Positions 1-15,637 of a stretch of DNA of 15,637 nucleotides are shown here, piece after piece. The notes under the pieces are model-generated. The model made no database searches, was not told where the DNA came from, and saw only the letters and a list, made by a program, of their open reading frames with translations. The first letter of the stretch is position 1. Each line of letters opens with the position of its first letter. Position numbers and translations under genes: made by a program. Origin of the DNA: Planctomycetota bacterium (GTDB taxonomy: Bacteria > Planctomycetota > MHYJ01 > JACQXL01 > JACQZI01); the NCBI GenBank assembly GCA_016207825.1, contig JACQZI010000033.1:1-15637 (forward strand), given 5' to 3'.

Positions 1-3000
1 AGTCTCTGTCCCGTCAAAGTTATTCAATAGACCTCTTTCAAAGGTGCAGCCGACTATCCAGTTCTTGGTGAAATTCGTATCCTGGCCGATGGTATCGGCC
101 GTTGACACCGCCCCACCCGATGACACCTGGTATTGCTTTGACGCATATAATCTGGTCGAATCCGTTACCTGGCTGGATACGCCTGCTGTCGTAGTGGCAG
201 AACGCGTTCTTTCATTGGTCGTGCTTTCAGTTAACCCGTAATTAAAACTGTTGGTTAACTCTGTCTTTTCCCCTATCTTATTTACTGAGCTTAATCCCAG
301 TAAAGCCGAATTGCCGTTCGTGCCGCTAGTCCCCTGGATATTTCCGGATAAATTATCCATAATCTGGATGGTTGAGCCCAAGCTTGTCTGGTGATTGGCC
401 GGCCCCTTAAAGGTCGTCTGTTGGGACATATACATATTAACACGCTGGCTCAAGGCATAATTCGCCCTGACTGCGCCGACCGATGTATCGGAATTGGTTT
501 CGCTCGTAATCTTAGCGAGTTTATTCTCCACGCTCTGGTAACGGTATTCGCCGGAAAGAGTGAGCTTTTCCGTCATATTGTAATTTCCCTGGAGGCTCGT
601 AACTTCTGTCTTTTCCCCTCCGACTAACGCGCCTGAAACCAGGTTATAATTCTTAAGAAGCTCCTGGACATCATACCTAACGCTAAGATTAAGTTTATCG
701 GTCAATTTATCGCTAATGCTTGTCCCGTATTTGGCCGTGCCCTGCTGTATTACCGCGTTGGAGGACATAAATCCCGGCCGCAGGTGCTGGTAATAAACAT
801 CCGTGGTTATATTCTCTATCGGTTTTGAATCTGCCTTGATATAATACGCGCTTCCTTCTGAGGATGATAAATTAGTCACTTCATTAAAGGTCAATCCGCC
901 GTTAAGCGAAACATAATTCGGGATGCCGCGTGATTCGGACTGGGCATATTCCACCTTGACTTTAGTCTCAAGCGGCAGTTTTACCGTTAAATCCGCGCCG
1001 CCTAAGGTGTAATCCTTATCTAATTCCTCTTCGGATACATATCCGGTGCCGATTGTAACTTCGTCTATAGGCGAATAGGCCACCCTTCCTCCGTATACCC
1101 CTTCATTTAAATGGGTCCGGTCGGGCTCGTACTCGTAATCCACCACGATATACATCCCATTGCCGTTAAGGATATTGGTTGATATAATACTGCTTGTTGG
1201 GTCTACCGAATTAACAACCTGCTTAAAGATAATACGCCCCATGTCATAATCTATCTCGTAATCAACTCCCCTTGTTTTAATAATCGTCTCGACCGGTAAA
1301 TTGGTCAGCTGGTCGCGGGAGACAAGCTTTACCTCTTCGCTTCCCTCTATCACATTCTTGTGCTTCAAGTAATAGAACGAGCCGCCGGTAGCGCGGAATT
1401 CGTTATGCGCCGCCACCTGGTATGCCCTGGCTCCAAACAGTTTTACCTCGGTATTCGGGATAAACAGATAATCAGCTCTATTATTATTCGTGTTCAAAGC
1501 CACCTTAGCTCCGTAAAGAGTCCGGTTATAGGCAAAAAGCTCATTACTCGCTAAATCTGTTTGGTAATTCCCAACCAAAACTTGAGACGCGGATGGCGTA
1601 TGCCCGGCTGACAAATAGAATAGTCCCTGCGTATTGGTGGCATCCCATGCCACGGTTGAGTCATCTCCGTATAGCGGATAATACTTGTCCGGGTCTATGT
1701 AACGCGACATTGCCCGGTACCGGTCTCGCTTGCTGTCGAATGATGAAGTAATCGTATAATCTTTCTTGAATGTGCCTGACATATAATATGCCAATCTCCC
1801 GCGGGCGGTAAAGCCGTCGTCAAAACCTTCATTAACCTTGTTTGTATTTACGATATCCGTATTGCCTGAAGTGGTATTGTAGCCGGCAATGCCTTCGCCC
1901 AGGACTAATAAGTGTAATCCCTCTACGCTTTGCTTCGGGGACGTCGCTGCTGCTCCGGAGTCTGAAGAGTTTGTAGAGTTTATAGAGTTTTTGGAGTCTA
2001 TTGGGAAGTTTACCTTGCATAATAAGCCTTCGGTTACCCTCACTATTTTAGGACTTTCTTTCACTTGCAACTTGTCACCTGTAACTTGTAACTTTAAGGC
2101 ATGCGTTCCGGGAACGACTCCAGGCACGTGGTATTTGCCGTCTTTATCCGTGGTGATAACCGTTCCGTCTTCCATTATTATCTTGGCCTGGCCGACACCA
2201 ACTTCCCCTTCATCCTGGATGCCGTTGCCATTGGTATCTTCAAACACCTTGCCGATAATCGTGCCCAAATCGAATATCGGGTCGGGCACGACCAGGACTT
2301 CTTCCCTGGCGATGTTTGAAGTACCTTCGGTAACCGGGGGCTTGTTATACCAGAACCGGGCATAGGCGCGGTTTTCGTATTTGCCGAAGGCTACACCGCT
2401 TCCCACGACCAATTGATAAGACACTACCTTTGTGGTCGCCGTTGCGGTTGTCCCGAACCAGCCGGCATCATATGTTAGTGTATTGGTATCAACACCTGCT
2501 GGATCAGTCCGGGTAATATTACCAGCCCCGTCTATTAAAATGCTTGACCCCTTTACATACTTAAAACCGGGCGGAATGCGGTCTATCAGCTGGGTTGGGT
2601 TGTTGATATCAGTCGGATCAACTCCATTATTGGTTAAAGTTATCTTATATGTCACGACATCACCAACTGAAACCTTTTGCTTATTCGCTTTCTTGGTTAT
2701 CTGGATATCAGCCGGGTCTGTCCCGATAATGTAAAGAGTGTTATTCATGTTTCCGACAACCAATTGGCCGGTATTCATAATTGACACTGATGATATAAAT
2801 CCGTTTGCCCCGCCGCCGGCATATTCTTTCGGCCACCCGCTAAGCGCTGTTCCAGCGGTGCCGGTATCTGTTAAGGCGTAAATACGCGATACGAAACCGT
2901 CATTCAGAGTCCCGAAATAAATGCGTCCCTTGGAATCAACTGTCGGCGAGCTTTGTATGCCTATTCCGGCATTAAAAGTCCATTTTTCAGAACCATCACT

Positions 3001-6000
3001 TTTGTTTCTTGCGTATAAATTGCCGTTATTGCATCCGACGTATAGAGTGGTTCCGTCAAGAGAAAGAGCGGCGGAAGACCAGATAGAATTACCTGCGCCT
3101 AAATTAACGCTCCATCCGACTGCACCGGTATTTGCGTTTATCTGATGGAATCTACCGGATAGATCGCCAACATAAATATAACCATCACCGGCAACCAGAG
3201 GAGTAGCTTTGACCTGCGCTGTAATCTGCACCCCCGTATTCCACAGTGTGTTATAAGTCCCGGGCCACATAGCATAAGGAGTTGTATCCTGATAGCAATA
3301 CACCTTATTATCATTGCACCCGATATATATTTTTCCGTTTTTATCCAGCGCCGGGGATGATTCGAACGGACTGCCGCTGGGGTTAACCTGCCAAAGCAAC
3401 CGACCCGCTGTCATATCATCATAGAGGGCATACAAAGTTGAACCCGCCGCAAAATAAACCCTGGTATTACTGGCGTCGCCAGTAATGGCCGGCGATGAAA
3501 GAATCGCGCCCATAGCAGTACCATATGACCAACGCGGCGCTCCGCCCACAAGGGGATAAGAATGCATAACGCCGGAATCATCCCCAAAATAGACGGCTTG
3601 TTTGACAGCGGATATTGCCGGAGAGGATTTAACCATTCCTACCAATGTACTCCACTGATTACCGGCATCTTTATTAATACAATAAAAACTTGACCCTGCC
3701 GCAGAATTGCAACCAAAATATATATTCCCGTCTTTATCTACCGCGGCGGAACTTTGAATAGACCCACCTGCAGGATATGTATGCGCTTCAGTTGTGCTGG
3801 TCGGGCCGGCGAATGTGGATTGACCGGTCCGGCTGACATTGCTTCTGAACATTATCTGAGAATACACGGCATCCGGAGAGGTCGAGCCGCCGTTATTAAT
3901 GGCATAAAGACTGCCGTTGCTTCCTATATACAATGTCCCATCCGAACCAATTACCGGAATATTATATCCTGAACCGACTCCTACCGAATAAGTCCATTCA
4001 GGCGACACAGGAGCAACTCCGGTATCTTTTAGAGCGCAAACATAGTCGCCCATATCGTCATAAAAATATATTATAGGGTTAGGCAGGTTTTTCCCGATTG
4101 TGACTCCGTAATTAATTACTCCGGCAGCCGGCGGAGGGTCATACGACCAGCGCATAGCTAAAGATCCCGCGGTTGGGGTAACCGAGTAAAGAGAACCGTT
4201 ATTAACAGCAAAATAAGTAACTTCCCCCGAACCGATTGCCGGGGCAGTAGTGATAGTAAAACCCACATTATAAGGATTATACTTATTCAGGCCGTCGCTT
4301 AAATTAAGTGCGTATATTTGACTGCTCACCGCCACATAGACAACGCTATTAGCCTCGTCAATTGCCGGAGCATACTTTATCTGGAAGGCGCCGAAATTAC
4401 GGGACCATTTATTCCCGGAATTATCAGGGTTATGGGCAAACATATAGCCGTTTGTCGTTCCGCAATAAATAAACCCTTGGCTATCTATCGCCGGTGAGGC
4501 TTCAATAGAGCCCATGGCCGGGAAATAGTCCCATTTTGGAGAGCCATCAGGATTAACCGCATATAATTTGCCGTCGCCCGCCCCGAAATAAACCGTGCCG
4601 TCAGAGCCTATGGTCGGAGCTGAATATATAGAGCTGAATATTACTCCCGCACCGCTCGGATAATCCCATTTATACGCACCATCCGATGATCGCACTGCAT
4701 AGAGCTTACTCTTCATTAAACCATCCATCGTGTTAACGCATATATATATGGTGCCGTCAGACCCAAGAGCAGGTGAAGCATAAATATATCGATCGTTACT
4801 GCCAATGTATTGGGGAATATCATAAACCCACCTTTTGGCGCCGGTTGAATCATAAGACTCAAGCCTACTAGTGGTTCCGATATAAACATTTCCTTTGCTA
4901 TCCAAAACAGCCGCTGAAGTCATGCCACCCATGCCTAAAGCCGCCCATTTTAATCCGCCGGTTGTAGGTCCGGCATATTCCGCGCGGCTGGTATTTGCCA
5001 AATCACAATGCGCTTTAGGCCAGGCGGTATCTGCCAGGGTAGCATTATTCGGCATAAATTCGACCGTATTAGAAAACGTACTGTAATCAGGGCCCGGGTC
5101 AAGGCGGTATGCCCTTACTTTATAATAATAAGTAACCACATCCGTTATATCGGTATCCGTATAAGCGCTGGCAGGCGAAATAACGGCATCAAGGAAACTA
5201 AAAAAACCTTCACCCTCTTTTTTGCGGGCTATGATAAAACCGGTCTCGTCGCTTGAAGTATCTGTCCAGGAAATGGCGATTTCGTTGGTGGCAAGCACTA
5301 TTCCGGTCAATCCGCTCGGTGCGGATGGCCAGGTGGAATCCGATGCCTCATTAGAATAAGAGCTATAAGATGGGTAACTTCCCGCGGTATAATATGACCG
5401 GGCACGGTAAGTATAAGTAACCGAATTAGAAAGCCCTAAATCACCATACCAAACAGTCGGACTTCCTGTAGCCGTCCCTATTTCCGCATAACCGCCGCCA
5501 TTTTTTCGTTCCAATTTAAAGCCGGCCCAAGGCGCGGAATTATTCGTCCAGGAAATAGATATGGCATTTGCCGTATCTGTAACCATCGCCAATAGGTCTA
5601 ACGGATATCCTAATCCTACTACCTGGTCGCTATTTAAAGTGCCGCTATAACCAACGGCGTTACGTGCTTTTATATAATACCAAAAATTATTAGTGCCGGA
5701 AGTGGTTGTGATAGTGTTATCCGTATAAGTGATAACCGACCCTGTTCCGGCAACGGCGCTAACCGTTATGGTGGATCCGAATGCGGGAGACCGTTCAATG
5801 TAAAAATCCAGTTCGTCGTCAGAATTATCCGTCCAGCTAATTACAGCCTGGTAAGAAGAAAGAGCTATTGCATTAAAAGACGAAGGTGCCGCCGGATAAG
5901 TTTGGGCAATAATTTCATCTGAATAAGGGCTGTCCGCCGCAGGGGAGTTCCGATAAGCCCTGACACGATAAGTATATATATTGGAAGGGGTGACTGTGCT

Positions 6001-9000
6001 ATCGTCATACCAAGTATTCCATTGGCCGCTAGTCCCTATTTGGGTAAATGTTGTTTCTCCTTCAAACTTTCGTTCTATCTTAAAGCCATTATGATCACCA
6101 TTACTATACGACCAACTCAAAGAGACCTTGTCAGGAGACGTATAAACCGCCTTTGATAGGTTTGTAGGCGCAGGCGGTGGCGTTTTTTGATAGGACTCAT
6201 TGGAATAACTGCTATAATCACCGCCTCTGTAGGCTTGTATACGATACCAGTATTCGGTTGAAGCGCTGACCGTATCATCAGTAGCAGAAATCACATTACT
6301 ACCAGCCCCAGGCGGAAGATTACTAAAGCTTCCGAACTGTCCTACTTTACGCTCTATCCTGAACCCCGTTTCGTCAATGGAATTATCCTGCCAGTTTAAA
6401 TCAATCCTGGTTGGTGAAATAGAAGTTGCCACCATCAAAGAAGGCGCCGATGGATAAGTAATATCTGATGCAGTTCCAGACGTGCTTTCGCCGGCATAAT
6501 TAGTTGCCTTTATTTTATAGGTATACGTTGTAGACGGCGATATACCGATATCATAATAAGTTAATTGCGTTCCCGAACCCTGGTTCGCGCTGACCGTCAT
6601 AATGTGGGTAAAATCAAGGTCGCCCGTTTTTTGCCGCAATATTTTAAAACATAATTCCTCTATCGAAGCGTCCGTCCACCTGACCTGGACCTTACCGGAT
6701 TGGGCGGTTACGCTTAAGCCGGTAGGTGTAACAGGAACAGCGCCAAAGGTATCTAATGTCTGCTGATTAGTCTCTGAAGGAGTGCTATCACCCTGGCTAT
6801 TAAAGGCATATAACTTATAATAATACCTGGTTGATGGCTCCAAGCCAGTATCAGTATATTTTATAGTGCCTCCGTCAGATGGGTCTATCGTGGCAATAAC
6901 GGTATACGCTTGCTCAGGATGATACGCACGCTCCAGCCTAAATCCTTCCTCATCAGAAGAACTATCCCACCAAGAAAGAATAAACTGGGATGAATTCACC
7001 ATGTCAAAACTTATCCCTCCGGGCTGGCTTGGAGCACTGCCGGGCAGGTTTTGGGTTTGCGCTGAATTATAATTATAATCACTGTCACCGGCTGAATTAT
7101 ATGCACGCACCCTGTAGTGATATGTCGCATTAAAAGTTAAGCCGCTATCAAGATATTTATTGGTGCCTGTTGAAATATACCCAACAGCTGTATAAGGCCC
7201 GGCAATATTATCCGCCCGTTCTATCTTAAACCCATCTTCATTATCGGAGTTATCAACCCAAGTCAGTTTTATCTGCGAAGAAGAAGGCGCATACCCGGAC
7301 AAACCGCTGGGAGGAGTGGGTGTTGTAGCCGGTGCAGGGTATGTGGTGGCTGAAACCTCGGTTGAATTACCGGTCTCGCCCTGGAGATTATAAGCCCTTA
7401 TTACATAATAATAAGGCGTGTTTGCAAGCAACCCAACCGTATCGGAAAACGAGGTGACATTGGCATTAAGTGTGCCGGAAATAACTAATGTATATGGACC
7501 TCCTGATAACGTCCAGCGATATACCCTGAATTCTGTTTCATTCCATGAATTATCCTGCCAGGAAAGGTTAATGCGCTTGGCGCTTATGGCTACTGCTGAA
7601 ACATTGGTCGGGGTAAGAGGCTTAGTTGCCGGCGGAGGATTGGTCAGTGCGTCATCTTGGTTAGATTGACCGCTTTCTCCGGCGCTGTTATACGCAGTCG
7701 CGTAATACCAGTATTTGGTTGAATGGTCCAAGCCGGTATCCGAATAAGATTCCACGCCTATTCCAACAGTTTTAATATAGTTCCATGTTCCCGTCCCATC
7801 TTTCTGGCGGTATATATAAAACCCTTCTTCATCGCCTGAAGTGTCATTCCAGGTTATATTAACCTGGGAATCAGAAACGGCAACGGCGTTTAAGGTGTTC
7901 GGCGGGCTGGGCGGATTAGTCGGCTGCGCCGGAGTGGTCGCGGAAGCCACCCCTGCGAACATACTGCCTCCCTGGGAGTTATATGCCTCTATTTTATAAT
8001 AGAAAGTTGTGGAAGATGCCAAACCTGTATCTGAATAAACCTCTGTATTAGGGTCAATAGTGGCAATTTGGGTAAATGGATCTGTCCCGGTAGTATTACG
8101 GTAAAGCTTAAACCCCTCTTCATCGGAAGAATTATCATCCCAGTAAACGTCAATTGCCGAAGACGATACGGCGATAACCGTCAGGTTTGAAGGGGTTATC
8201 GGAGGATTAAGCGGTATTGCCGGAGTGGCTGCCGAAACCTCGGCTGAATTGCCGGTTCCCTGGAAGTTATATGACTGGACGACATAATAATATGTGGTGG
8301 AAGGGGTGACGGTAATATCGGAAAACGATTGGATACCCGGGTCAACCCGATACTGCACCGGATAAGGTCCTCCAAACACTTCACTGCGGTTAATATAAAA
8401 TCCGGCTTCATTATTCGAAGCATCTGTCCACGTTACATTAATAAGGGCATAAGAAGCGGCTGTGGCAGTGGTCCCGGTCGGGGCTGCCGGCGGCGAAGAA
8501 GGAGCCGATTTGGTAGTCGCGTTGGTTTCATTGCTACCTCCAATGCTTTCACCCCATACATTCCAGGCGTAAATTTTATAATAATAATTGGTGGAAGGAT
8601 CGACATCGCGGGGAGGATTAAGATCAATAAAGGAAGTAACCCCTGCTCCAACGGTCGCGTACCAGCCATAACTCCATGGACCATTAATACTCCGGTATAT
8701 CCTAAACTCTGTTTCGTCATTGGAGCTATCATTCCAGGATAAATTAACCTGGGAGTAAGAAGGCGCGCTGCATGTGGCATTTGAAGGATTGTTCGGCTTG
8801 CCGGGTGTTGTAACTGACTTATCATTCTGCGGTAAATAAGTTTCAAAACCGCCTCCGCGGGCAAGCACCCTATAATAAAATGTTCCCTTTTCCCAAACCG
8901 TATTGTCTGTGTAGTTTGTGGTATTGGCGGAAACATCGATAATATTAATCCAAGAACCATCAATTCCTGTCAGGGAACGCCTGATAGCATAACCTTCTTC

Positions 9001-9657
9001 GTTTGAACTATCGGTCCATGTAATATTAACCGAGGTGTTAGTCGTAGCGGTTACCGCCACATTGGTCGGAGGATTCGGGGCAGTAGGTCCTGCCGGAGAT
9101 GTGCCTCCGCTATCACTACCACCACCACCGCCGCCACCGCCGCCTGCAGCTGCACCAAGCACGCCGATCCCGCCCCAGAAATACCACTTGCTAAAGATAG
9201 AACCGCCTTTGGCCTGGGAAAGCAGGTTTTCAACCGGTCTTATATTGGGCTTAAAACCGGATGTGCCTTTTTCCATCCCCAGTTGCAGAAGCTCCCCAGT
9301 GGCGCTTTTCTGGTAACGGACGATTTTACAGCCGGCTGACTCCTGGCTTTTCATATATTCCTTAAAGCCGGGCTCGCTCAATCTTTCGCCGTTCTTGAAA
9401 TATTCAACCGGATTTGAAGGACCGGAAGGTTTCTTAAGAAGCGTATCTTCCTTACATTCCTTGAAGATACGGTAATAATAATCGCCGTAGTTTCCACCCT
9501 GGTCCCTAATCAGCGATTCCCGGATGCTTTTTTCTATCTCGTCTTTAGCCATCTCTGCCGGGTAGACTATTTCCACCAGGTCGGCGGCATACGATAACGA
9601 GCAAGTAACAAGGAACAATAAAAAAGCAGCCAGTAAATACTTTATTTCTGTTTTCAT
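1..9657 (-). CDS. Giant secreted FN3 / PQQ-propeller / DUF11 / SdrD-B / outer-membrane beta-barrel protein (3' end cut by window)
   Basis: One minus-strand frame is open from the ATG at 9657-9655 to base 1, giving at least 3219 residues; the C-terminus is outside the window. Residues 1-24 form a signal peptide (MKTEIKYLLAAFLLFLVTC, then SLSYA before AD). Residues 25-155 are unrecognised. Residues 157-180 are a short hydrophobic stretch ending in nine glycines. Residues ~189-1537 hold about 14 FN3-like domains, ~1543-2312 about 16 PQQ/WD40-like repeats, 2313-2459 a DUF11-type domain (DIQITKKANKQKVSVGDVV), and ~2464-2535 an SdrD-B/Cna-B-like domain with an acidic calcium-loop-like motif DTNGNGIQDEGE (2474-2485). 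From ~2590 on, alternating strands and the motifs YYPLYGDDST and GVDYEIDYDMGRIIF resemble large outer-membrane barrels. The start overlaps the upstream stop as ATGA with no Shine-Dalgarno, so translation is probably coupled. I infer an outer-membrane-anchored adhesin or scaffold; no catalytic domain is visible. Confidence 0.93.
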   Translation of the reverse strand, partial: MKTEIKYLLAAFLLFLVTCSLSYAADLVEIVYPAEMAKDEIEKSIRESLIRDQGGNYGDYYYRIFKECKEDTLLKKPSGPSNPVEYFKNGERLSEPGFKEYMKSQESAGCKIVRYQKSATGELLQLGMEKGTSGFKPNIRPVENLLSQAKGGSIFSKWYFWGGIGVLGAAAGGGGGGGGGSDSGGTSPAGPTAPNPPTNVAVTATTNTSVNITWTDSSNEEGYAIRRSLTGIDGSWINIIDVSANTTNYTDNTVWEKGTFYYRVLARGGGFETYLPQNDKSVTTPGKPNNPSNATCSAPSYSQVNLSWNDSSNDETEFRIYRSINGPWSYGWYATVGAGVTSFIDLNPPRDVDPSTNYYYKIYAWNVWGESIGGSNETNATTKSAPSSPPAAPTGTTATAASYALINVTWTDASNNEAGFYINRSEVFGGPYPVQYRVDPGIQSFSDITVTPSTTYYYVVQSYNFQGTGNSAEVSAATPAIPLNPPITPSNLTVIAVSSSAIDVYWDDNSSDEEGFKLYRNTTGTDPFTQIATIDPNTEVYSDTGLASSTTFYYKIEAYNSQGGSMFAGVASATTPAQPTNPPSPPNTLNAVAVSDSQVNITWNDTSGDEEGFYIYRQKDGTGTWNYIKTVGIGVESYSDTGLDHSTKYWYYATAYNSAGESGQSNQDDALTNPPPATKPLTPTNVSAVAISAKRINLSWQDNSWNETEFRVYRWTLSGGPYTLVISGTLNANVTSFSDTVGLLANTPYYYVIRAYNLQGETGNSTEVSATTYPAPATTPTPPSGLSGYAPSSSQIKLTWVDNSDNEDGFKIERADNIAGPYTAVGYISTGTNKYLDSGLTFNATYHYRVRAYNSAGDSDYNYNSAQTQNLPGSAPSQPGGISFDMVNSSQFILSWWDSSSDEEGFRLERAYHPEQAYTVIATIDPSDGGTIKYTDTGLEPSTRYYYKLYAFNSQGDSTPSETNQQTLDTFGAVPVTPTGLSVTAQSGKVQVRWTDASIEELCFKILRQKTGDLDFTHIMTVSANQGSGTQLTYYDIGISPSTTYTYKIKATNYAGESTSGTASDITYPSAPSLMVATSISPTRIDLNWQDNSIDETGFRIERKVGQFGSFSNLPPGAGSNVISATDDTVSASTEYWYRIQAYRGGDYSSYSNESYQKTPPPAPTNLSKAVYTSPDKVSLSWSYSNGDHNGFKIERKFEGETTFTQIGTSGQWNTWYDDSTVTPSNIYTYRVRAYRNSPAADSPYSDEIIAQTYPAAPSSFNAIALSSYQAVISWTDNSDDELDFYIERSPAFGSTITVSAVAGTGSVITYTDNTITTTSGTNNFWYYIKARNAVGYSGTLNSDQVVGLGYPLDLLAMVTDTANAISISWTNNSAPWAGFKLERKNGGGYAEIGTATGSPTVWYGDLGLSNSVTYTYRARSYYTAGSYPSYSSYSNEASDSTWPSAPSGLTGIVLATNEIAISWTDTSSDETGFIIARKKEGEGFFSFLDAVISPASAYTDTDITDVVTYYYKVRAYRLDPGPDYSTFSNTVEFMPNNATLADTAWPKAHCDLANTSRAEYAGPTTGGLKWAALGMGGMTSAAVLDSKGNVYIGTTSRLESYDSTGAKRWVYDIPQYIGSNDRYIYASPALGSDGTIYICVNTMDGLMKSKLYAVRSSDGAYKWDYPSGAGVIFSSIYSAPTIGSDGTVYFGAGDGKLYAVNPDGSPKWDYFPAMGSIEASPAIDSQGFIYCGTTNGYMFAHNPDNSGNKWSRNFGAFQIKYAPAIDEANSVVYVAVSSQIYALNLSDGLNKYNPYNVGFTITTAPAIGSGEVTYFAVNNGSLYSVTPTAGSLAMRWSYDPPPAAGVINYGVTIGKNLPNPIIYFYDDMGDYVCALKDTGVAPVSPEWTYSVGVGSGYNIPVIGSDGTLYIGSNGSLYAINNGGSTSPDAVYSQIMFRSNVSRTGQSTFAGPTSTTEAHTYPAGGSIQSSAAVDKDGNIYFGCNSAAGSSFYCINKDAGNQWSTLVGMVKSSPAISAVKQAVYFGDDSGVMHSYPLVGGAPRWSYGTAMGAILSSPAITGDASNTRVYFAAGSTLYALYDDMTAGRLLWQVNPSGSPFESSPALDKNGKIYIGCNDNKVYCYQDTTPYAMWPGTYNTLWNTGVQITAQVKATPLVAGDGYIYVGDLSGRFHQINANTGAVGWSVNLGAGNSIWSSAALSLDGTTLYVGCNNGNLYARNKSDGSEKWTFNAGIGIQSSPTVDSKGRIYFGTLNDGFVSRIYALTDTGTAGTALSGWPKEYAGGGANGFISSVSIMNTGQLVVGNMNNTLYIIGTDPADIQITKKANKQKVSVGDVVTYKITLTNNGVDPTDINNPTQLIDRIPPGFKYVKGSSILIDGAGNITRTDPAGVDTNTLTYDAGWFGTTATATTKVVSYQLVVGSGVAFGKYENRAYARFWYNKPPVTEGTSNIAREEVLVVPDPIFDLGTIIGKVFEDTNGNGIQDEGEVGVGQAKIIMEDGTVITTDKDGKYHVPGVVPGTHALKLQVTGDKLQVKESPKIVRVTEGLLCKVNFPIDSKNSINSTNSSDSGAAATSPKQSVEGLHLLVLGEGIAGYNTTSGNTDIVNTNKVNEGFDDGFTARGRLAYYMSGTFKKDYTITSSFDSKRDRYRAMSRYIDPDKYYPLYGDDSTVAWDATNTQGLFYLSAGHTPSASQVLVGNYQTDLASNELFAYNRTLYGAKVALNTNNNRADYLFIPNTEVKLFGARAYQVAAHNEFRATGGSFYYLKHKNVIEGSEEVKLVSRDQLTNLPVETIIKTRGVDYEIDYDMGRIIFKQVVNSVDPTSSIISTNILNGNGMYIVVDYEYEPDRTHLNEGVYGGRVAYSPIDEVTIGTGYVSEEELDKDYTLGGADLTVKLPLETKVKVEYAQSESRGIPNYVSLNGGLTFNEVTNLSSSEGSAYYIKADSKPIENITTDVYYQHLRPGFMSSNAVIQQGTAKYGTSISDKLTDKLNLSVRYDVQELLKNYNLVSGALVGGEKTEVTSLQGNYNMTEKLTLSGEYRYQSVENKLAKITSETNSDTSVGAVRANYALSQRVNMYMSQQTTFKGPANHQTSLGSTIQIMDNLSGNIQGTSGTNGNSALLGLSSVNKIGEKTELTNSFNYGLTESTTNERTRSATTTAGVSSQVTDSTRLYASKQYQVSSGGAVSTADTIGQDTNFTKNWIVGCTFERGLLNNFDGTET
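1954..1998 (-). repeat. Five tandem copies of a 9-nt repeat encoding an Asn/Ser-rich linker
   Basis: On the minus strand the units are GACTCCAAA, AACTCTATA, AACTCTACA, AACTCTTCA and GACTCCGGA. They encode a [DN]-S-x tripeptide repeat (DSKNSINSTNSSDSG) between the SdrD-B-like domain and the barrel-like region. The low-complexity, polar character fits a flexible linker. Confidence 0.85.
2060..2094 (-). repeat. Five tandem copies of a 7-nt repeat within the giant gene
   Basis: On the plus strand the units are ttcactt, gcaactt, gtcacct, gtaactt and gtaactt. Because seven is not a multiple of three, the reading frame rotates, giving a 21-nt / 7-residue super-period in the protein (KLQVTGD then KLQVKES). 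It lies at the C-terminal edge of the SdrD-B-like domain. Confidence 0.85.
2722..5031 (-). repeat. About 16 PQQ/WD40-like beta-propeller repeats, apparently two 8-blade modules
   Basis: The translation holds repeated blades of the form SSPAIGSDGTVYFGxGDGKLYAVNP followed by a KWxY-type strand, 35-55 residues each; I count about 16. A leader motif typical of the beginning of such propellers occurs twice: DLANTSRAEYAGPT near 4995-4950 and NVSRTGQSTFAGPT near 3840-3800. It therefore precedes blades 1 and 9, dividing the array into two sets of eight. No PQQ-dehydrogenase catalytic residues were identified, so a binding or structural role is more likely than an enzyme. Confidence 0.85.
5050..9093 (-). 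repeat. Array of about 14 fibronectin type III domains inside the giant protein
   Basis: The translation cycles with a period of about 96 residues (~289 bases). Each unit starts with a proline-rich linker such as PSAPSGL or PNPPTNV, then a strand ending in xITWTD, then a nearly invariant NSSDEEGFxIxR-type segment, an aromatic strand pair (YSDTGLxxSTxYYYKIxAYN) and an exit such as SNEVSATT. I count 14 units; edges are approximate. These are hallmarks of bacterial FN3 domains, which act as extended spacers or binding modules. Units differ clearly in DNA sequence, so the array is old rather than a recent expansion. Confidence 0.9.
9118..9144 (-). repeat. GGN-type trinucleotide repeat encoding nine consecutive glycines
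   Basis: Nine glycine codons in a row (residues 172-180) follow a short hydrophobic segment, KWYFWGGIGVLGAAA (residues 157-171), and precede the first FN3 domain. On the plus strand it reads as alternating acc and gcc triplets. It separates the unknown N-domain from the FN3 array and probably forms a flexible hinge or a membrane-proximal spacer. Confidence 0.85.
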
Positions 9658-10686: not shown

Positions 10687-13600
10687 TTATTTATTGCCTA
10701 ACGCCGTAGCCAATCTCCTGTCGACATCCTTGGCGCAGCGGAAGCCTATATAATTAGAACAGAAATTACCGGTTACCCCGCCGCAGGTACCCTGCTGGCG
10801 ATAGGTATTCCTGAGAAACTTGGGGAATAATATCCACGAACCGCCCCTTAAGGTATGCCCTGAACCCTTCTTCCGGCTCATTTCTTTATTGTAATTATAC
10901 GAATCCTCATAAATATCTTCGCACCATTCAGCGACGTTTCCAATCATCTGGAAGCATCCATAAGGACTTTTGCCTGATTCATACTTATTGTCTGCAGATG
11001 GGACAGAGCCGCCGGAGCCGGTAAGGGCATTATTACAGGCATTTTCATCCCAGTTATTTCCCCATGGGTATATAAATTCTTTGGTCCCGCGGGCGGCTTT
11101 TTCCCATTCAGCTTCCGTCAACAAACGCTTGCCCGCCCACTTGGCGTATTCATTGGCATCCTTCCAGGAAACATGGACAACCGGATGATCCATCCTGTCC
11201 TTAATCCCCTTGCCGTCTCCTTCGGGGTCGCGCCAATTAGCACCCCGGACTTCCATGAGTTCGCAATCCTTCCAAACCCAGCTTTTCCCCGATATTTCCG
11301 CCTCTGTTTTATAGTTCTTGTTGGATTTAACAAAAATCTCGAACTGGGCATTGGTAATTTCGTATTTATCTATATAGAATTCCTTTACATCAATAGTGGA
11401 CTGCACCGGCTTTTCAAAGGGCTCCCCATCATCCGTTCCAATGCTAAACTGCCCGCCCGGCACGATAACCATTTCGGCATTATCATTATTTGATTTAATC
11501 AACCTGTAAACCCCGTCTGTTTTTCCGTTAATACTATCAGGGGTTATCCCGCAAAGCGCAAAAAAGTCCATCTCTATTTTGGTTTCCAGTTCGTCTAACG
11601 TTTTACCATTACCCGTTAACTTATCCGTATACTGCGCCTTTTCTTCTTCATCCAATTCAACCTTTGCCAGATTCCCTTTAAGGCTTATGATATGATTACG
11701 GGATTGTTTAAGCTCCCCTACCAAATCAATATATTCTTCCGGTGTTTTTACGTTGCCGACCGATTCATCCAGCTTGGCTACGGAATCCTGGTATGCCGTA
11801 TAATCCTCTTTAAATAATCCGCATTCAATATCCCTGATTTTGGCAACGACCTTGTCGCCAAGCACTTTCAGGTATTTGTCTTTATCACATTCGCTCTTGA
11901 ACTGTTTGGAAAACTCTAATTGCTCATTCAGTTTCTTTCCCTCCAAACCGGTTTCATAGCTTTTATAACGGTCTACCTGATAAGCCATTTGCAGGTCATC
12001 GAAAAGGGTGGCTGCCAATTCCGTTGCGGTCACGGCGTCAGGGTGTTCGTCTTTCAGTTCCTTCAAATCCGAAACCATCGTTTCTATCTTACCCAGGTAT
12101 CCGGAGGCCTTCTCACGAGCCATAACCTTCACCTTAAAATACATCGCCGAAGGCACCAGCTCATATTCCTCTGTTTTTATATTGATGAAATCAGAATCAA
12201 GCTTGGGATACAATTTATCATACTGGTTTTTTGAATCGAATTTCATGATATCATTGAAACTGTTTTGCAAATTGCTCAGCTTGGTCCCGGTAAAAACAAG
12301 CGGGGATTCTTCGAGCATTTTCGCAGCCACCAGCGACATTATTTTCTTGTTCCATCGTTCGGTTAAGGTATCCTGGAGTTTCTTGAGGTCGTTGTTCGAT
12401 TGGACCAAAGTGCTTTCGATTGTCCCGAATTCCTCCCATGCCGCATCAAGGTCTTTCAAAAGGAGCGCGTTGATTTTCGCCAGCCATTTTTTTATGAATG
12501 CGTCCTTAAGTCCCTGCAGCGGCGCGCTTTCCTTGCGCTCCAGCAAAGCGGAAGGCACCAGGTTATATTCCCTCCAGACAAAGTTCAGTTTATCACCCTT
12601 TTCTACCATGCCTTCTATTTTATCAGCCCATTTGGTAATCATGGAAGAACGGCGGTCGCTTACATCGTCATGCTCCTGGTATTTCGGGTCTATCTTGGTA
12701 AGGGCGGTCCAAGTCTCGGTAAATCTCGATTGCTTTATAAGGCCGTCAATCTGTACCAGGGCATTTTTGGTGGCGTCATTCAGGCTTGAGCCTGCCGCAG
12801 CACGGCCGTCTTTTCCCTGCGGCTTGAAAAGGACGCTGTATGCGAAAACACCTATGCCGATCATCAATACCGCCGCGATGCCGAATCCGATATAAAGCAT
12901 CCGGCTGCTCTTCTTCTGGCGCTTGGCAAAATCCGAAACCATGGTCGCATCCAGCGCAGAGGTGGAAGCATGTATCGGCGCCTGCTGCGCCCTAAAAGCC
13001 TCCAAATCCTCGATGAGTTGGGCAGGAGAAAGATAACGGGCGTTCGGGTCTTTCTGGATGCACTTCATGATGATGGCTTCCAGTTCCCTGGGGAAATCCT
13101 GGGCGAATTGAGAAACGTTCGCCGCCGTATCGTAAATATGATGCCGTATCATGCTCATGGCGCTGTCGCTTTCAAACGGGATGCGGCCGGTCGCCATTTC
13201 GTACATGACGATACCGAGTGAATAAATATCCGAACGGATATCCGCCGCGCTGCCCATGCCCTGTTCGGGTGAAATATATTTGGGCGTTCCGATGACCGTT
13301 CCGGCCATGGTCGCTTCCCCATCGACATTTTCGTTTAATTTAGCCAGGCCGAAATCCATGACCTTGACTTTCGTTTCCATGATATTGACATCCATGACGG
13401 CCATGCTTTCGGAAACACTTCCCCCCGGCTGGCTGTCGGTCGGCGGCTTCATCATGGAACTCGAATAGGAAACCATGATATTGGCGGGCTTGATATCGCG
13501 GTGGACGATCTTGGCGGGCGATTCCCAGGCGGCCCTCAAGGCACGCGCCACCGAATCCGCCACGTAAACGATTTCATTTACCGCAAACTTGCGGCCGCGC

Positions 13601-13944
13601 TCGACGAACTTGGAAAGGGGCTGTCCCTGGACAAACTCCATGATGAAGAAATACTCGCCGTCTTTTTCACCGACTGAGTAAACCTGGATGATATGCTCAT
13701 CCGTCATCGTGGCGAGTGTTGTCGCCTCGCGCTTGAAACGCTTGACGAATTCCGGGTCGGCGGAGAGTTCCTTTTTGAGGATTTTTATGGCGACTTCGCG
13801 GTTAAGGGATTTCTGTTTTCCGCGATAGACTTCACCCCAGGCGCCTTTGCCGAGCAGACGCTTGGTGCTGTATTCAAATTCGCCTATGGTCTTAATTTCA
13901 GCAGTTTGGGCAGGTTGTCCTGCCTGTTCTGTGGGGTCTGGCAT
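10687..13944 (-). CDS. Transmembrane Hanks-type Ser/Thr protein kinase with helical stalk and FGE-sulfatase-like C-terminal domain
   Basis: 1085 residues. The kinase domain (~25-320) has the glycine loop GKGAWG (32-37), Lys54 in VAIK, HRD at 148-150 with Lys152 and Asn155, DFG at 197-199 and SPE at 225-227, so it should be active. A Ser/Met-rich insertion (~158-191) separates the catalytic loop from DFG. One membrane segment (~349-372) follows a basic stretch (KRQKKSSR). A helix-rich stalk (~380-820) contains repeated KWxxKI and EYxLVPSA motifs. The C-terminal ~260 residues (MVIVPGGQFSIGT, FYIDKYEITNAQF, HPVVHVSWKDANEYAKW, GNVAEWCED, RGGSW, IGFRC) match the FGE-sulfatase/SUMF1 fold. However, the segment after RGGSW reads ILFPKFLRNTYRQ and lacks the paired active-site cysteines, so this is probably a binding or sensing domain rather than an enzyme. 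A kinase with this tail is common in Planctomycetota-like genomes. The start lies just below a perfect promoter. Confidence 0.95.
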   Translation of the reverse strand: MPDPTEQAGQPAQTAEIKTIGEFEYSTKRLLGKGAWGEVYRGKQKSLNREVAIKILKKELSADPEFVKRFKREATTLATMTDEHIIQVYSVGEKDGEYFFIMEFVQGQPLSKFVERGRKFAVNEIVYVADSVARALRAAWESPAKIVHRDIKPANIMVSYSSSMMKPPTDSQPGGSVSESMAVMDVNIMETKVKVMDFGLAKLNENVDGEATMAGTVIGTPKYISPEQGMGSAADIRSDIYSLGIVMYEMATGRIPFESDSAMSMIRHHIYDTAANVSQFAQDFPRELEAIIMKCIQKDPNARYLSPAQLIEDLEAFRAQQAPIHASTSALDATMVSDFAKRQKKSSRMLYIGFGIAAVLMIGIGVFAYSVLFKPQGKDGRAAAGSSLNDATKNALVQIDGLIKQSRFTETWTALTKIDPKYQEHDDVSDRRSSMITKWADKIEGMVEKGDKLNFVWREYNLVPSALLERKESAPLQGLKDAFIKKWLAKINALLLKDLDAAWEEFGTIESTLVQSNNDLKKLQDTLTERWNKKIMSLVAAKMLEESPLVFTGTKLSNLQNSFNDIMKFDSKNQYDKLYPKLDSDFINIKTEEYELVPSAMYFKVKVMAREKASGYLGKIETMVSDLKELKDEHPDAVTATELAATLFDDLQMAYQVDRYKSYETGLEGKKLNEQLEFSKQFKSECDKDKYLKVLGDKVVAKIRDIECGLFKEDYTAYQDSVAKLDESVGNVKTPEEYIDLVGELKQSRNHIISLKGNLAKVELDEEEKAQYTDKLTGNGKTLDELETKIEMDFFALCGITPDSINGKTDGVYRLIKSNNDNAEMVIVPGGQFSIGTDDGEPFEKPVQSTIDVKEFYIDKYEITNAQFEIFVKSNKNYKTEAEISGKSWVWKDCELMEVRGANWRDPEGDGKGIKDRMDHPVVHVSWKDANEYAKWAGKRLLTEAEWEKAARGTKEFIYPWGNNWDENACNNALTGSGGSVPSADNKYESGKSPYGCFQMIGNVAEWCEDIYEDSYNYNKEMSRKKGSGHTLRGGSWILFPKFLRNTYRQQGTCGGVTGNFCSNYIGFRCAKDVDRRLATALGNK

Positions 13945-14224: not shown

Positions 14225-14878
14225 CTAATATAATAAAAACGGGGAGTGAATCTGGCCAGCAGGACATCCCGCGAGGGACCAGACCCACTCCCCATAAGCA
14301 AAAAGACACCAAGAATACATTAGGAAATGACAACCGTTTGTGCATGGGCAATCTTCCGGGTCGTCCGGCGGCACAGTGCCGGATGCCACCATAATAAACC
14401 GATATTCAACGACGTTTGCATCCGGGTGCATGCTGGCGCGGGTCTGGTCTGTGGTCACCCGGCAACGCACTTCAATATCGCCGCCGCCTAAGCCTTTCAA
14501 TCCGATAATCGGCACAGTCGTAATCGGCGCACCGGGCGAGGGCTCGGTATCGCGAACCGTCAAACCTAAATTTACCCGGTCCGTATCGGAGACCAGCGGG
14601 CTATTCATCAGATACTGCCTTGCCATGGTGCGGATTTCTTTTTCATAAAGCTCGCGCGACTGGCGGTGCGCCAGGACATCAGCCCTGGTCCGGGTGGTTT
14701 TATTTTGCGCGGCGGTGTATAATGGTTCGTATGACATGCGTCGGGCACCAATAGCCATAACATCAGCCGGCGGAATGCCCCAGGTGACGGCGTTCGCCAC
14801 CACCCGATTCACAAAATTCCCCTGGAAATTGAAAAAGTCATCGTCCTGTTTGGGGATGTAGTATTTTTTTATTGGCAT
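14225..14878 (-). CDS. MPIKKYYIP-type hypothetical protein with probably altered C-terminus
   Basis: 217 residues. The start at 14878 is fixed by AAGGAG six bases upstream and by the N-terminus MPIKKYYIPK, which I recall from a family of unknown function in Planctomycetota and other environmental genomes. The N-terminal half is helical (DDFFNFQGNFVNRVVANAV, WGIPPADV, RTRADVLAHRQSRELYEKEI). It is followed by a strand-rich stretch (ITTVPIIGLKGLGG, DIEVRCRVTTDQTR, VVEYRFIMVASG). Family members as I remember them continue with a beta-rich end containing GK and RW(x)N motifs. Here the tail after DDPEDCPC is unrelated, Cys- and aromatic-rich (HFLMYSWCLFAYGEWVW), and is encoded across a terminator hairpin. 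I infer 3' truncation or replacement. An extended start at 14977 would run through the upstream hairpins and lacks an RBS. Confidence 0.75.
   Translation of the reverse strand: MPIKKYYIPKQDDDFFNFQGNFVNRVVANAVTWGIPPADVMAIGARRMSYEPLYTAAQNKTTRTRADVLAHRQSRELYEKEIRTMARQYLMNSPLVSDTDRVNLGLTVRDTEPSPGAPITTVPIIGLKGLGGGDIEVRCRVTTDQTRASMHPDANVVEYRFIMVASGTVPPDDPEDCPCTNGCHFLMYSWCLFAYGEWVWSLAGCPAGQIHSPFLLY
14234..14293 (-). terminator. Intrinsic terminator overlapping the end of the MPIKKYYIP-type ORF
   Basis: The plus-strand arms ggggagtg (14241-14248) and cactcccc (14286-14293) pair. After a 2-nt mismatch, tctgg (14251-14255) pairs with ccaga (14279-14283), and inside lies tccc-gcga-ggga (14267-14278). 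Read on the minus strand the hairpin is followed at once by GTTTTTATTATATT, a U-rich release tract. Residues ~196-213 of the ORF are encoded by this hairpin and the stop codon lies at the end of the U-tract. Confidence 0.75.
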
Positions 14879-14884
14879 TTTTAT

Positions 14885-14890
14885 CTCCTT
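14885..14890 (-). promoter_or_regulatory. Shine-Dalgarno AAGGAG deciding the MPIKKYYIP-type start
   Basis: AAGGAG on the minus strand lies six bases (ATAAAA) before the ATG at 14878. It settles the start against the upstream in-frame ATG at 14977. The sequence just 5' of it (14893 onward) is the foot of a large hairpin. Confidence 0.85.
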
Positions 14891-14892
14891 TT

Positions 14893-14953
14893 CCGCCCCG
14901 CTTTGCCCCCTTCGAGGACTCCCTATTAATCGGGGTCCTGCGGAGCGGGGCGG
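14893..14953. repeat. Long GC-rich stem-loop immediately 5' of the RBS
   Basis: The outer arms ccgccccgct (14893-14902) and agcggggcgg (14944-14953) are a perfect 10-bp inverted repeat. Within them aggactcc (14915-14922) pairs with ggggtcct (14932-14939) with one G-T pair around a nine-base loop. In the minus-strand transcript the hairpin ends two bases before AAGGAG. With no U-tract behind it, a role in mRNA stability or RBS control is more likely than termination. Confidence 0.8.
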
Positions 14954-14959
14954 GACGGA

Positions 14960-14974
14960 CCCGCCTTTGGCGGG
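14960..14974. repeat. Short perfect hairpin cccgcc-ttt-ggcggg
   Basis: A 6-bp GC-only stem with a three-base loop lies between the long stem-loop and the 21-nt tandem array. It is of the kind seen in dispersed palindromic elements. No function can be assigned. Confidence 0.7.
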
Positions 14975-14980
14975 CACGGT

Positions 14981-15190
14981 TTATATCGTTGTTGCTACGT
15001 CTTATATCCCAGTTGCTACAATTTATATCGCCTTTGCTATGAATCATATCCCCGTTGCTACGACTTGTATCCCTATTGCTACAAGCCATATTCCCATTGC
15101 TACGAGTTGTATCCCCGTTGCTACGGGTTATATTCCAGGGAATAAAGGTTATATTCCACGGAATACGGGTTATATTCCCTTAACTACGGG
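14981..15190. repeat. Ten exact-length tandem copies of a diverged 21-nt repeat
   Basis: Ten units of exactly 21 bases run without any indel, with consensus near TTATATCCCCGTTGCTACGGG. Units 1-7 share the TTGCTA core. Units 8 and 9 replace it with palindromic ATTCCAGGGAAT and ATTCCACGGAAT, and unit 10 ends in taacta-cggg-tagtta together with the following bases. Many units contain a small imperfect palindrome (CCCGT-TGCT-ACGGG). Because 21 is divisible by three, heptapeptide-like frames stay open on both strands, but neither has a supported start, so I treat the array as non-coding. Confidence 0.9.
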
Positions 15191-15195
15191 TAGTT

Positions 15196-15262: not shown

Positions 15263-15637
15263 CTACGGCGGGACTCCTATGCAAGTAGCGTTTTCGAATT
15301 CTAAATAAGAGCTATCCGCTATCTTCACCCCGGCGCGGGTGCCGCCGCTGATATCACTGGCTAATTTATATACAATATAATAGGTCTTGGGCGTGGTGGT
15401 TACCTGCCAGCGGTTCATATTGAGGTAACACGTGCCGTTGGTAAAATTGCCTTTGGAGATAAGCGTATCGCCAACATCCCAGAAACCGTTATTATTATTT
15501 TCCATCCAGATTTGGACTTCTATTTTGTTATCCGGGCAGGGGGTCGCAACGCCTGTAACGCCCTTATCTATCCGGAACTTCTTCCAGCGTGCTGTGCCGG
15601 AAATGGTATTTGCGTTAAACTTGACATAAGCGATAGA
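15263..15637 (-). CDS. C-terminal end of an extracytoplasmic-looking protein (5' end cut by window)
   Basis: The frame is open from the window edge to a TAG at 15265-15263, showing the last 124 residues; an internal ATG at 15505 is not needed as a start. The sequence is strand-rich (IAYVKFNANTISGTARWKKF, KIEVQIWMENNNNGFWDVGD, TYYIVYKLASDISGGTRAGV). It contains an Asn/Asp-rich loop, ENNNNGFWDVGD, resembling calcium-binding loops of large surface proteins. The pattern of a W..F.I strand, the acidic loop, and a TYYIVY strand is what I would expect from one repeat of a multidomain secreted protein. I do not recognise the family. No membrane anchor or sorting motif is visible at the end (SYLEFENATCIGVPP). 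Confidence 0.8.
   Translation of the reverse strand, partial: SIAYVKFNANTISGTARWKKFRIDKGVTGVATPCPDNKIEVQIWMENNNNGFWDVGDTLISKGNFTNGTCYLNMNRWQVTTTPKTYYIVYKLASDISGGTRAGVKIADSSYLEFENATCIGVPP

Follow-up and report, generated by a model that had tools for sequence, protein, structure and literature searches.

The giant gene and its truncated 3′ end

Many giant DUF11/SdrD_B proteins of Gram-negative bacteria have, to our knowledge, no assigned outer-membrane route or anchor. A gene encoding a protein with both domains lies in the window analyzed here (the entire contig C33, G000:C33, 15,637 bases), and it raises the question of how such a protein could be tied to, or carried across, the outer membrane. 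The contig is part of a 2.9 Mb genome, 97.6% complete, of a groundwater bacterium of the Planctomycetota, and the closest named relative is Candidatus Brocadiia bacterium (Planctomycetota), isolate DeMMO3_52. The features identified are summarized in Table 1.

Table 1. Features of the giant gene and of the gene overlapping it (window coordinates; residues refer to the C33 protein).
Feature	Position	Strand	Basis or remarks
Giant gene	1..9657	-	At least 3219 codons, 3′ end open; full-length estimate from complete relatives ~3,470 aa
Signal peptide (MKTEIKYLLAAFLLFLVTCSLSYA), residues 1-24	9586..9657	-	Sequence; hydropathy 1.97 at residue 7
N-terminal domain, residues 25-157	9187..9585	-	Also in several fused paralogues
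Apolar and poly-glycine linker (KWYFWGGIGVLGAAAGGGGGGGGG), residues 158-190	9088..9186	-	Sequence
14 FN3 domains, residues 192-1530	5068..9084	-	Own-repeat profile and Pfam fn3
Two PQQ/BamB-type beta-propellers, residues 1546-2312	2722..5022	-	Pfam and blade profile
DUF11 (CLIPPER) domain, residues 2314-2455	2293..2718	-	Pfam, E 2e-7
SdrD_B domain, residues 2461-2560	1978..2277	-	Pfam, E 1e-7; alignment A1
Predicted outer-membrane barrel region, first 639 residues (2581-3219)	1..1917	-	Alignment, model of a relative, fold matches
Most conserved barrel-family segment (GSE..VRD..RG.DYEIDY..GRI.F)	1120..1428	-	Segment profile
DUF11-SdrD_B-barrel cassette	1..2718	-	88.5% DNA identity with the C12 paralogue
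Upstream secreted protein, 275 aa	9654..10481	-	4-base overlap (ATGA) with the giant gene

The frame runs from 9657 to 1 without a stop codon and begins with a signal peptide, as a preliminary description of this DNA had reported. Because the window spans all of contig C33, the gene is truncated by the assembly. The barrel region comprises ~880-955 residues in complete relatives (the C5, C8, and C37 paralogues and the relative L037), and ~250 residues are therefore absent from the C33 gene; in the structure model of a relative described below, 31 of the 44 strands listed are predicted to fall before the C33 break point. A second gene, on contig C12, is truncated at the identical codon, and the terminal 100 bases of C12 and C33 are identical. 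Shared truncation of this sort is typical where an assembly breaks at a repeat. The final 80 residues of such a barrel protein, with a terminus like ...GPFIRFVGTFSR, are found at the end of contig C17. In complete planctomycete relatives the chain terminates right after the barrel with no further domain, and the C-termini of complete relatives are aromatic and barrel-like (...GPFIRFVGTFSR, ...GPFIRLVATVVY, ...GVFLNLVGKF and similar).

Two of the paralogues showed features of their own. The C8 paralogue (L011 8690-8800, G000:C8) has a deletion with a frameshift within DUF11, which could be an assembly error or mark a pseudogene. Contig C37 (G000:C37, L012) carries a 7,641-aa open frame with the same barrel family at its end, and the orthologue in genome G001 has 7,625 aa.

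Domains preceding the barrel region

The N-terminal domain of ~130 residues matched no family in the Pfam search and shares 22% identity with the C5 paralogue (E 2e-10). Paralogues carry an apolar segment at the equivalent position behind this domain. We considered and rejected a membrane anchor at this point, as a stop-transfer helix there would leave the rest of the protein cytoplasmic. The 14 FN3 domains of the preliminary description were recovered with E-values of 7e-16 to 2e-37, using a profile made from ten repeats of the C33 protein itself, and the DUF11 and SdrD_B domains were likewise found in Pfam searches. The propellers are of the PQQ type, and a simple profile detected ~13 blades; the earlier count of 16 is plausible, though unproven. 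By comparison with PMC12617251 and the paralogues, K2323, D2359, and N2429 are probably the isopeptide residues of DUF11; they occupy plausible positions for a Lys-Asp-Asn triad and are kept in the paralogues, the bond itself being putative. Giant size together with isopeptide-type DUF11 domains is usual in surface stalks (PMC12617251).

The C-terminal region as a predicted outer-membrane barrel

Pfam searches assigned no family to the last ~640 residues of the C33 protein. This region, noted earlier as more than 600 strand-rich residues, is conserved across phyla by sequence comparison. AF2 was used to model the barrel alone of the complete relative L038, which is 54% identical to the C33 barrel, and the model reached a pLDDT of 70.6 and a pTM of 0.54; an earlier model that included SdrD_B was of low confidence (pLDDT 55.7). 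After residue 250, the L038 model predicts 34 strands, each 8-17 residues long, and six to eight more long strands are predicted ahead of residue 250. At moderate model confidence, the region would thus be a barrel of the outer-membrane type with 34 to ~42 strands, and the beta-sandwich repeats that the preliminary description had named as the contrary outcome were not seen in the model.

Foldseek returned 48 outer-membrane proteins and two apolipoprotein B structures among the best 50 matches to the L038 model, and all 50 rows listed by VIA-align were membrane barrels or complexes thereof. A profile of SdrD_B and barrel gave no match to PDB sequences. The in-out alternation of apolar residues in the model strands was 2.10 compared to 1.47 (s.d. 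0.16) in 2,000 within-strand shuffles, a weak test because beta-sandwiches alternate too. Taken together, the model, the fold matches, and the aromatic C-termini strongly indicate that the C-terminal region is an outer-membrane barrel, which makes the barrel proposed earlier the best reading of this part of the protein.

The barrel family and its two-gene form

By sequence comparison, the predicted barrel is a member of a family without a Pfam name that occurs in Planctomycetota, Omnitrophota, and Proteobacteria. The C33 barrel shares 43-95% identity with other members, and proteobacterial relatives show 25-30% identity over 93-99% of the length (E 1e-74 to 1e-32 among the matches listed). Relatives were also identified in Omnitrophota and in one deltaproteobacterium. 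Within the phylum, the barrel was found in 10 of 294 genomes, seven of which (C33's own genome counted) belong to the order of the C33 bacterium. Database labels of the relatives are TonB-dependent receptor and OmpA family.

The proteobacterial organization was determined for plasmid loci only, in eight of 25 plasmid records. At all eight, the barrel is a separate gene with a DUF11-type or giant ORF directly upstream on the same strand, at a spacing of -4 to +74 bases. The upstream partners are of very different sizes (Eleftheria, 2,647 aa; Vibrio, at least 3,691; Pelagibacterium, 1,907; Nitratireductor, 1,859; Pseudochrobactrum, 595; Phyllobacterium, ~3,405; Croceibacterium, 2,037; Sulfitobacter, ~6,458). 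The DUF11-SdrD_B module of C33 resembles the terminal pieces of the partners at eight of eight loci, strongly in six and weakly in Croceibacterium. Against the last DUF11-SdrD_B of the six giant partners, E-values were 4e-29 to ~2e-23, compared to 5e-5 or worse against the internal repeats of the same six proteins. Judged from these alignments, the terminal DUF11-SdrD_B of the partners is homologous to the module ahead of the C33 barrel. The pairing and the homologous terminal module therefore indicate that the C33 gene is a two-gene system fused into one, joined behind SdrD_B. The preliminary description had regarded the layout as a possible new class of self-anchored adhesin. The barrel is not confined to this gene: it belongs to a multi-phylum family and is encoded as a separate gene beside a DUF11/SdrD_B protein in Proteobacteria. 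A search of the open-access literature found no paper on the gene pair. Mentions of DUF11 in a paper on T11SS were set aside, as most of them are in fact DUF1194 and the barrels in question are different ones.

Pairing or fusion with DUF11-SdrD_B is not universal, and the barrel genes L045, L046, and L069 are without the module. The barrel occurs without a fused passenger in some Omnitrophota and in one distant planctomycete. In L070, from a distant planctomycete, the 2,073-aa barrel ORF is preceded by a separate ORF of 908 aa that looks secreted. In some relatives an OmpA-type peptidoglycan-binding domain terminates the passenger partner or is part of the barrel protein, and part of these systems is therefore periplasmic. 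In the Omnitrophota forms L043 and L044, the barrel is followed by an additional helical domain, which would be expected to lie in the periplasm.

Probable copying of the C-terminal cassette

The homology between C33 and C12 ends at window base 2718, which is the first residue of DUF11. The barrel proteins of C33 and C12 are 95% identical, compared to 83% for the orthologous pair of C12 and L037, which are orthologues over the whole length (76-78% DNA identity) with shared neighbors. In the barrel tree, C33 and C12 are joined before L037 (support 93/83). On the simplest reading of these comparisons, one of two genes whose passengers are unrelated received its C-terminal cassette as a copy from the other, and the assembly would have broken at C33 and C12 because of this copying.

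Resemblance to SprA

The barrel of SprA has 36 strands. The longest VIA-align alignments of the L038 model were to SprA (576 and 583 residues, Z 15.5 and 13.6) and extend over the whole model. SprA is also the top row (Z 15.5, 576 aligned residues, rmsd 11.7), although OprC (15.3) and others are level with it by Z. The sole part of the barrel with sequence resemblance to SprA is the most conserved segment, which matches the segment profile with an E-value of 8e-46 (the C33 row itself being in the profile) and has the patch G.DY..DY..GR in common with SprA. Searched against PDB sequences, the 103-column segment gave SprA residues 676-740 as its best sensible match (E 0.31). The designed WD40 protein Tako8 had the best E-value in this search and was dismissed, because that value arises artefactually from adding up tiny matches between repeats. 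The surface_SprA profile (TIGR04189) gave four matches in the whole genome, all to the conserved segment in four of the five main paralogues, with E-values of 0.0025-0.0047 and 14-15 bits against a cut-off of 200, and these span ~50-120 of the 2319 profile positions. No match in the genome thus reaches the 200 bits for surface_SprA membership. The SprA_N Pfam profile had no matches in the genome, and the control was likewise without a match. We take the sequence patch and the fold as a lead to distant kinship with SprA, not as membership.

Compared with viral contigs, the barrel gave one local match only, and compared with phages none. A protein on a viral contig (L063, IMG/VR contig, about 2614-2757) has the RGTDYSIDYANGTITF pattern of the conserved segment, and this small beta motif is therefore more widespread than the barrel family.

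Neighboring genes and DNA

Homologues of the 275-aa protein are found upstream of other fused barrel genes (C5, E 2e-24; L042, 6e-23; C12, weak), and the protein had no match in the Pfam search. From its conserved overlapping position alone, it may be an assembly or stability partner. Directly upstream of this gene pair, at 10687-13944 on the minus strand, is a gene for a 1085-aa protein with a Ser/Thr kinase and an FGE-sulfatase-type domain; no such gene was seen beside the C12 paralogue. Two more minus-strand ORFs (14225-14977 and 15263-15637) have look-alikes near the C8 and C37 barrel genes. An intergenic array of degenerate ~21-base repeats of the TTATATCCCCGTTGCTACGAG type is located at 14976-15191, and G-rich repeats of similar appearance lie behind the orphan barrel end on C17 (L018).

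Proposed function and alternatives

The explanation we favor, as the one that is probably but by no means certainly correct, is that the C33 gene is a fused two-gene envelope system in which a giant barrel, joined through DUF11-SdrD_B, displays an exchangeable passenger on the surface. The C-terminal ~880-950 residues would form a very large outer-membrane beta-barrel, DUF11-SdrD_B would act as the conserved junction module, and the 14 FN3 domains with the two propellers would be the exchangeable passenger. The signal peptide would take the protein across the inner membrane and the barrel would insert into the outer membrane, with the passenger displayed outside and still tied to the barrel. 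We infer the surface location from three features: a front part that would measure an estimated ~60 nm when stretched, domains of the stalk type, and a DUF11 of the isopeptide type (PMC12617251). That the passenger is exported through the lumen of the barrel, as with SprA, is conjecture by analogy. The data point to a family of barrels with a role in carrying or exporting giant surface proteins. That it might constitute a separate export class, in which giant multidomain surface proteins cross the wide lumen of an SprA-like giant barrel found outside Bacteroidota, the system being organized as two genes in Proteobacteria and fused in Planctomycetota and Omnitrophota, is a tentative and rather doubtful proposal.

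The main rival to surface display is a connector of the kind known from Deinococcus SlpA or OmpM, with a long N-terminal part that would stay in the periplasm and link the cell wall with the outer membrane. In its favor, the better fold matches include SlpA structures (E 1e-7 to 1e-5), and barrels usually have both termini on the periplasmic side; the OmpA-type peptidoglycan-binding domains of some relatives keep this possibility alive. The C33 protein (3219 aa) itself, however, has no SLH or peptidoglycan-binding domain in Pfam searches, a front part of an estimated ~60 nm, partners of up to 6,458 aa, and fused forms of 7,641 aa would strain the periplasm, and isopeptide-type DUF11 is usual for surface proteins; we regard a connector as unlikely. 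The beta-sandwich reading, by which the C-terminus would be a string of such repeats and no membrane barrel at all, could draw on the strand-rich sequence and the moderate confidence of the model, but is the least probable alternative given the uninterrupted run of strands of 10-17 residues, the aromatic C-termini, and fold matches that are almost all membrane barrels.

Other alternatives accept the barrel and give it a different role. A role as a transport channel or receptor, the front domains serving for binding, would agree with the annotation of relatives and with the TonB-dependent receptors among the fold matches. Six barrel proteins nevertheless lacked a TonB plug or receptor Pfam family at E-values up to 1, at least 34 strands are predicted compared to 22 in receptors, and ~270-390 residues aligned to receptors compared to ~580 to SprA. 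As a receptor would also leave the fixed pairing with DUF11 proteins unaccounted for, we consider it improbable. Slightly more improbable is a known secretion type, be it a type V autotransporter, two-partner secretion, or a component or cargo of the T9SS. The layout of passenger and barrel and the TpsA/TpsB-like two-gene form are in its favor, as are the top VIA-align row of SprA and the surface_SprA profile, which in this genome matches these barrels alone. Complete barrels, however, showed no autotransporter, POTRA, ShlB, YadA-anchor, or intimin family in Pfam at E-values up to 1, consistent with the earlier remark that no autotransporter domain was recognizable, and the SprA profile matches are local and far under the cut-off. 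With respect to T9SS cargo, or to the downstream sorting signal that the preliminary description had set against an anchor, the C-terminal signal TIGR04183 was nowhere over the cut-off in the genome, and the complete paralogues stop after the barrel without such an end.

The fused gene names a partner for giant DUF11/SdrD_B proteins, namely the adjacent barrel labelled as TonB-dependent receptor or OmpA family. The resemblance to SprA, if real, would mean that the T9SS translocon has a relative beyond the Bacteroidota.

Comparison with known systems

With SprA/Sov, the T9SS translocon of Bacteroidota, the C33-type family shares a predicted very large barrel, the longest structural alignment, and the G.DY..DY..GR patch. 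The sequence link, however, is local and weak, without a full-length profile match, and in the C33-type family the cargo-like part belongs to the barrel chain itself or to a neighboring gene. In type V secretion, too, a passenger and an outer-membrane barrel form a single chain or are encoded side by side, but the type V barrels have 12 or 16 strands, whereas the C33-family barrel is predicted to be two to three times larger and has no sequence relation, POTRA, or autotransporter domain in Pfam searches. Deinococcus SlpA and OmpM resemble the C33 protein in placing several N-terminal domains ahead of a large barrel (E 3e-6 for the fold match), while the C33 protein lacks an SLH domain and has a front part many times longer. 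The fibrillar adhesins with DUF11 (CLIPPER) and SdrD_B share the stalk modules FN3, DUF11, and SdrD_B (PMC12617251), but they are anchored by a sortase-type or lipid signal, whereas the C33 protein would be anchored by its barrel.
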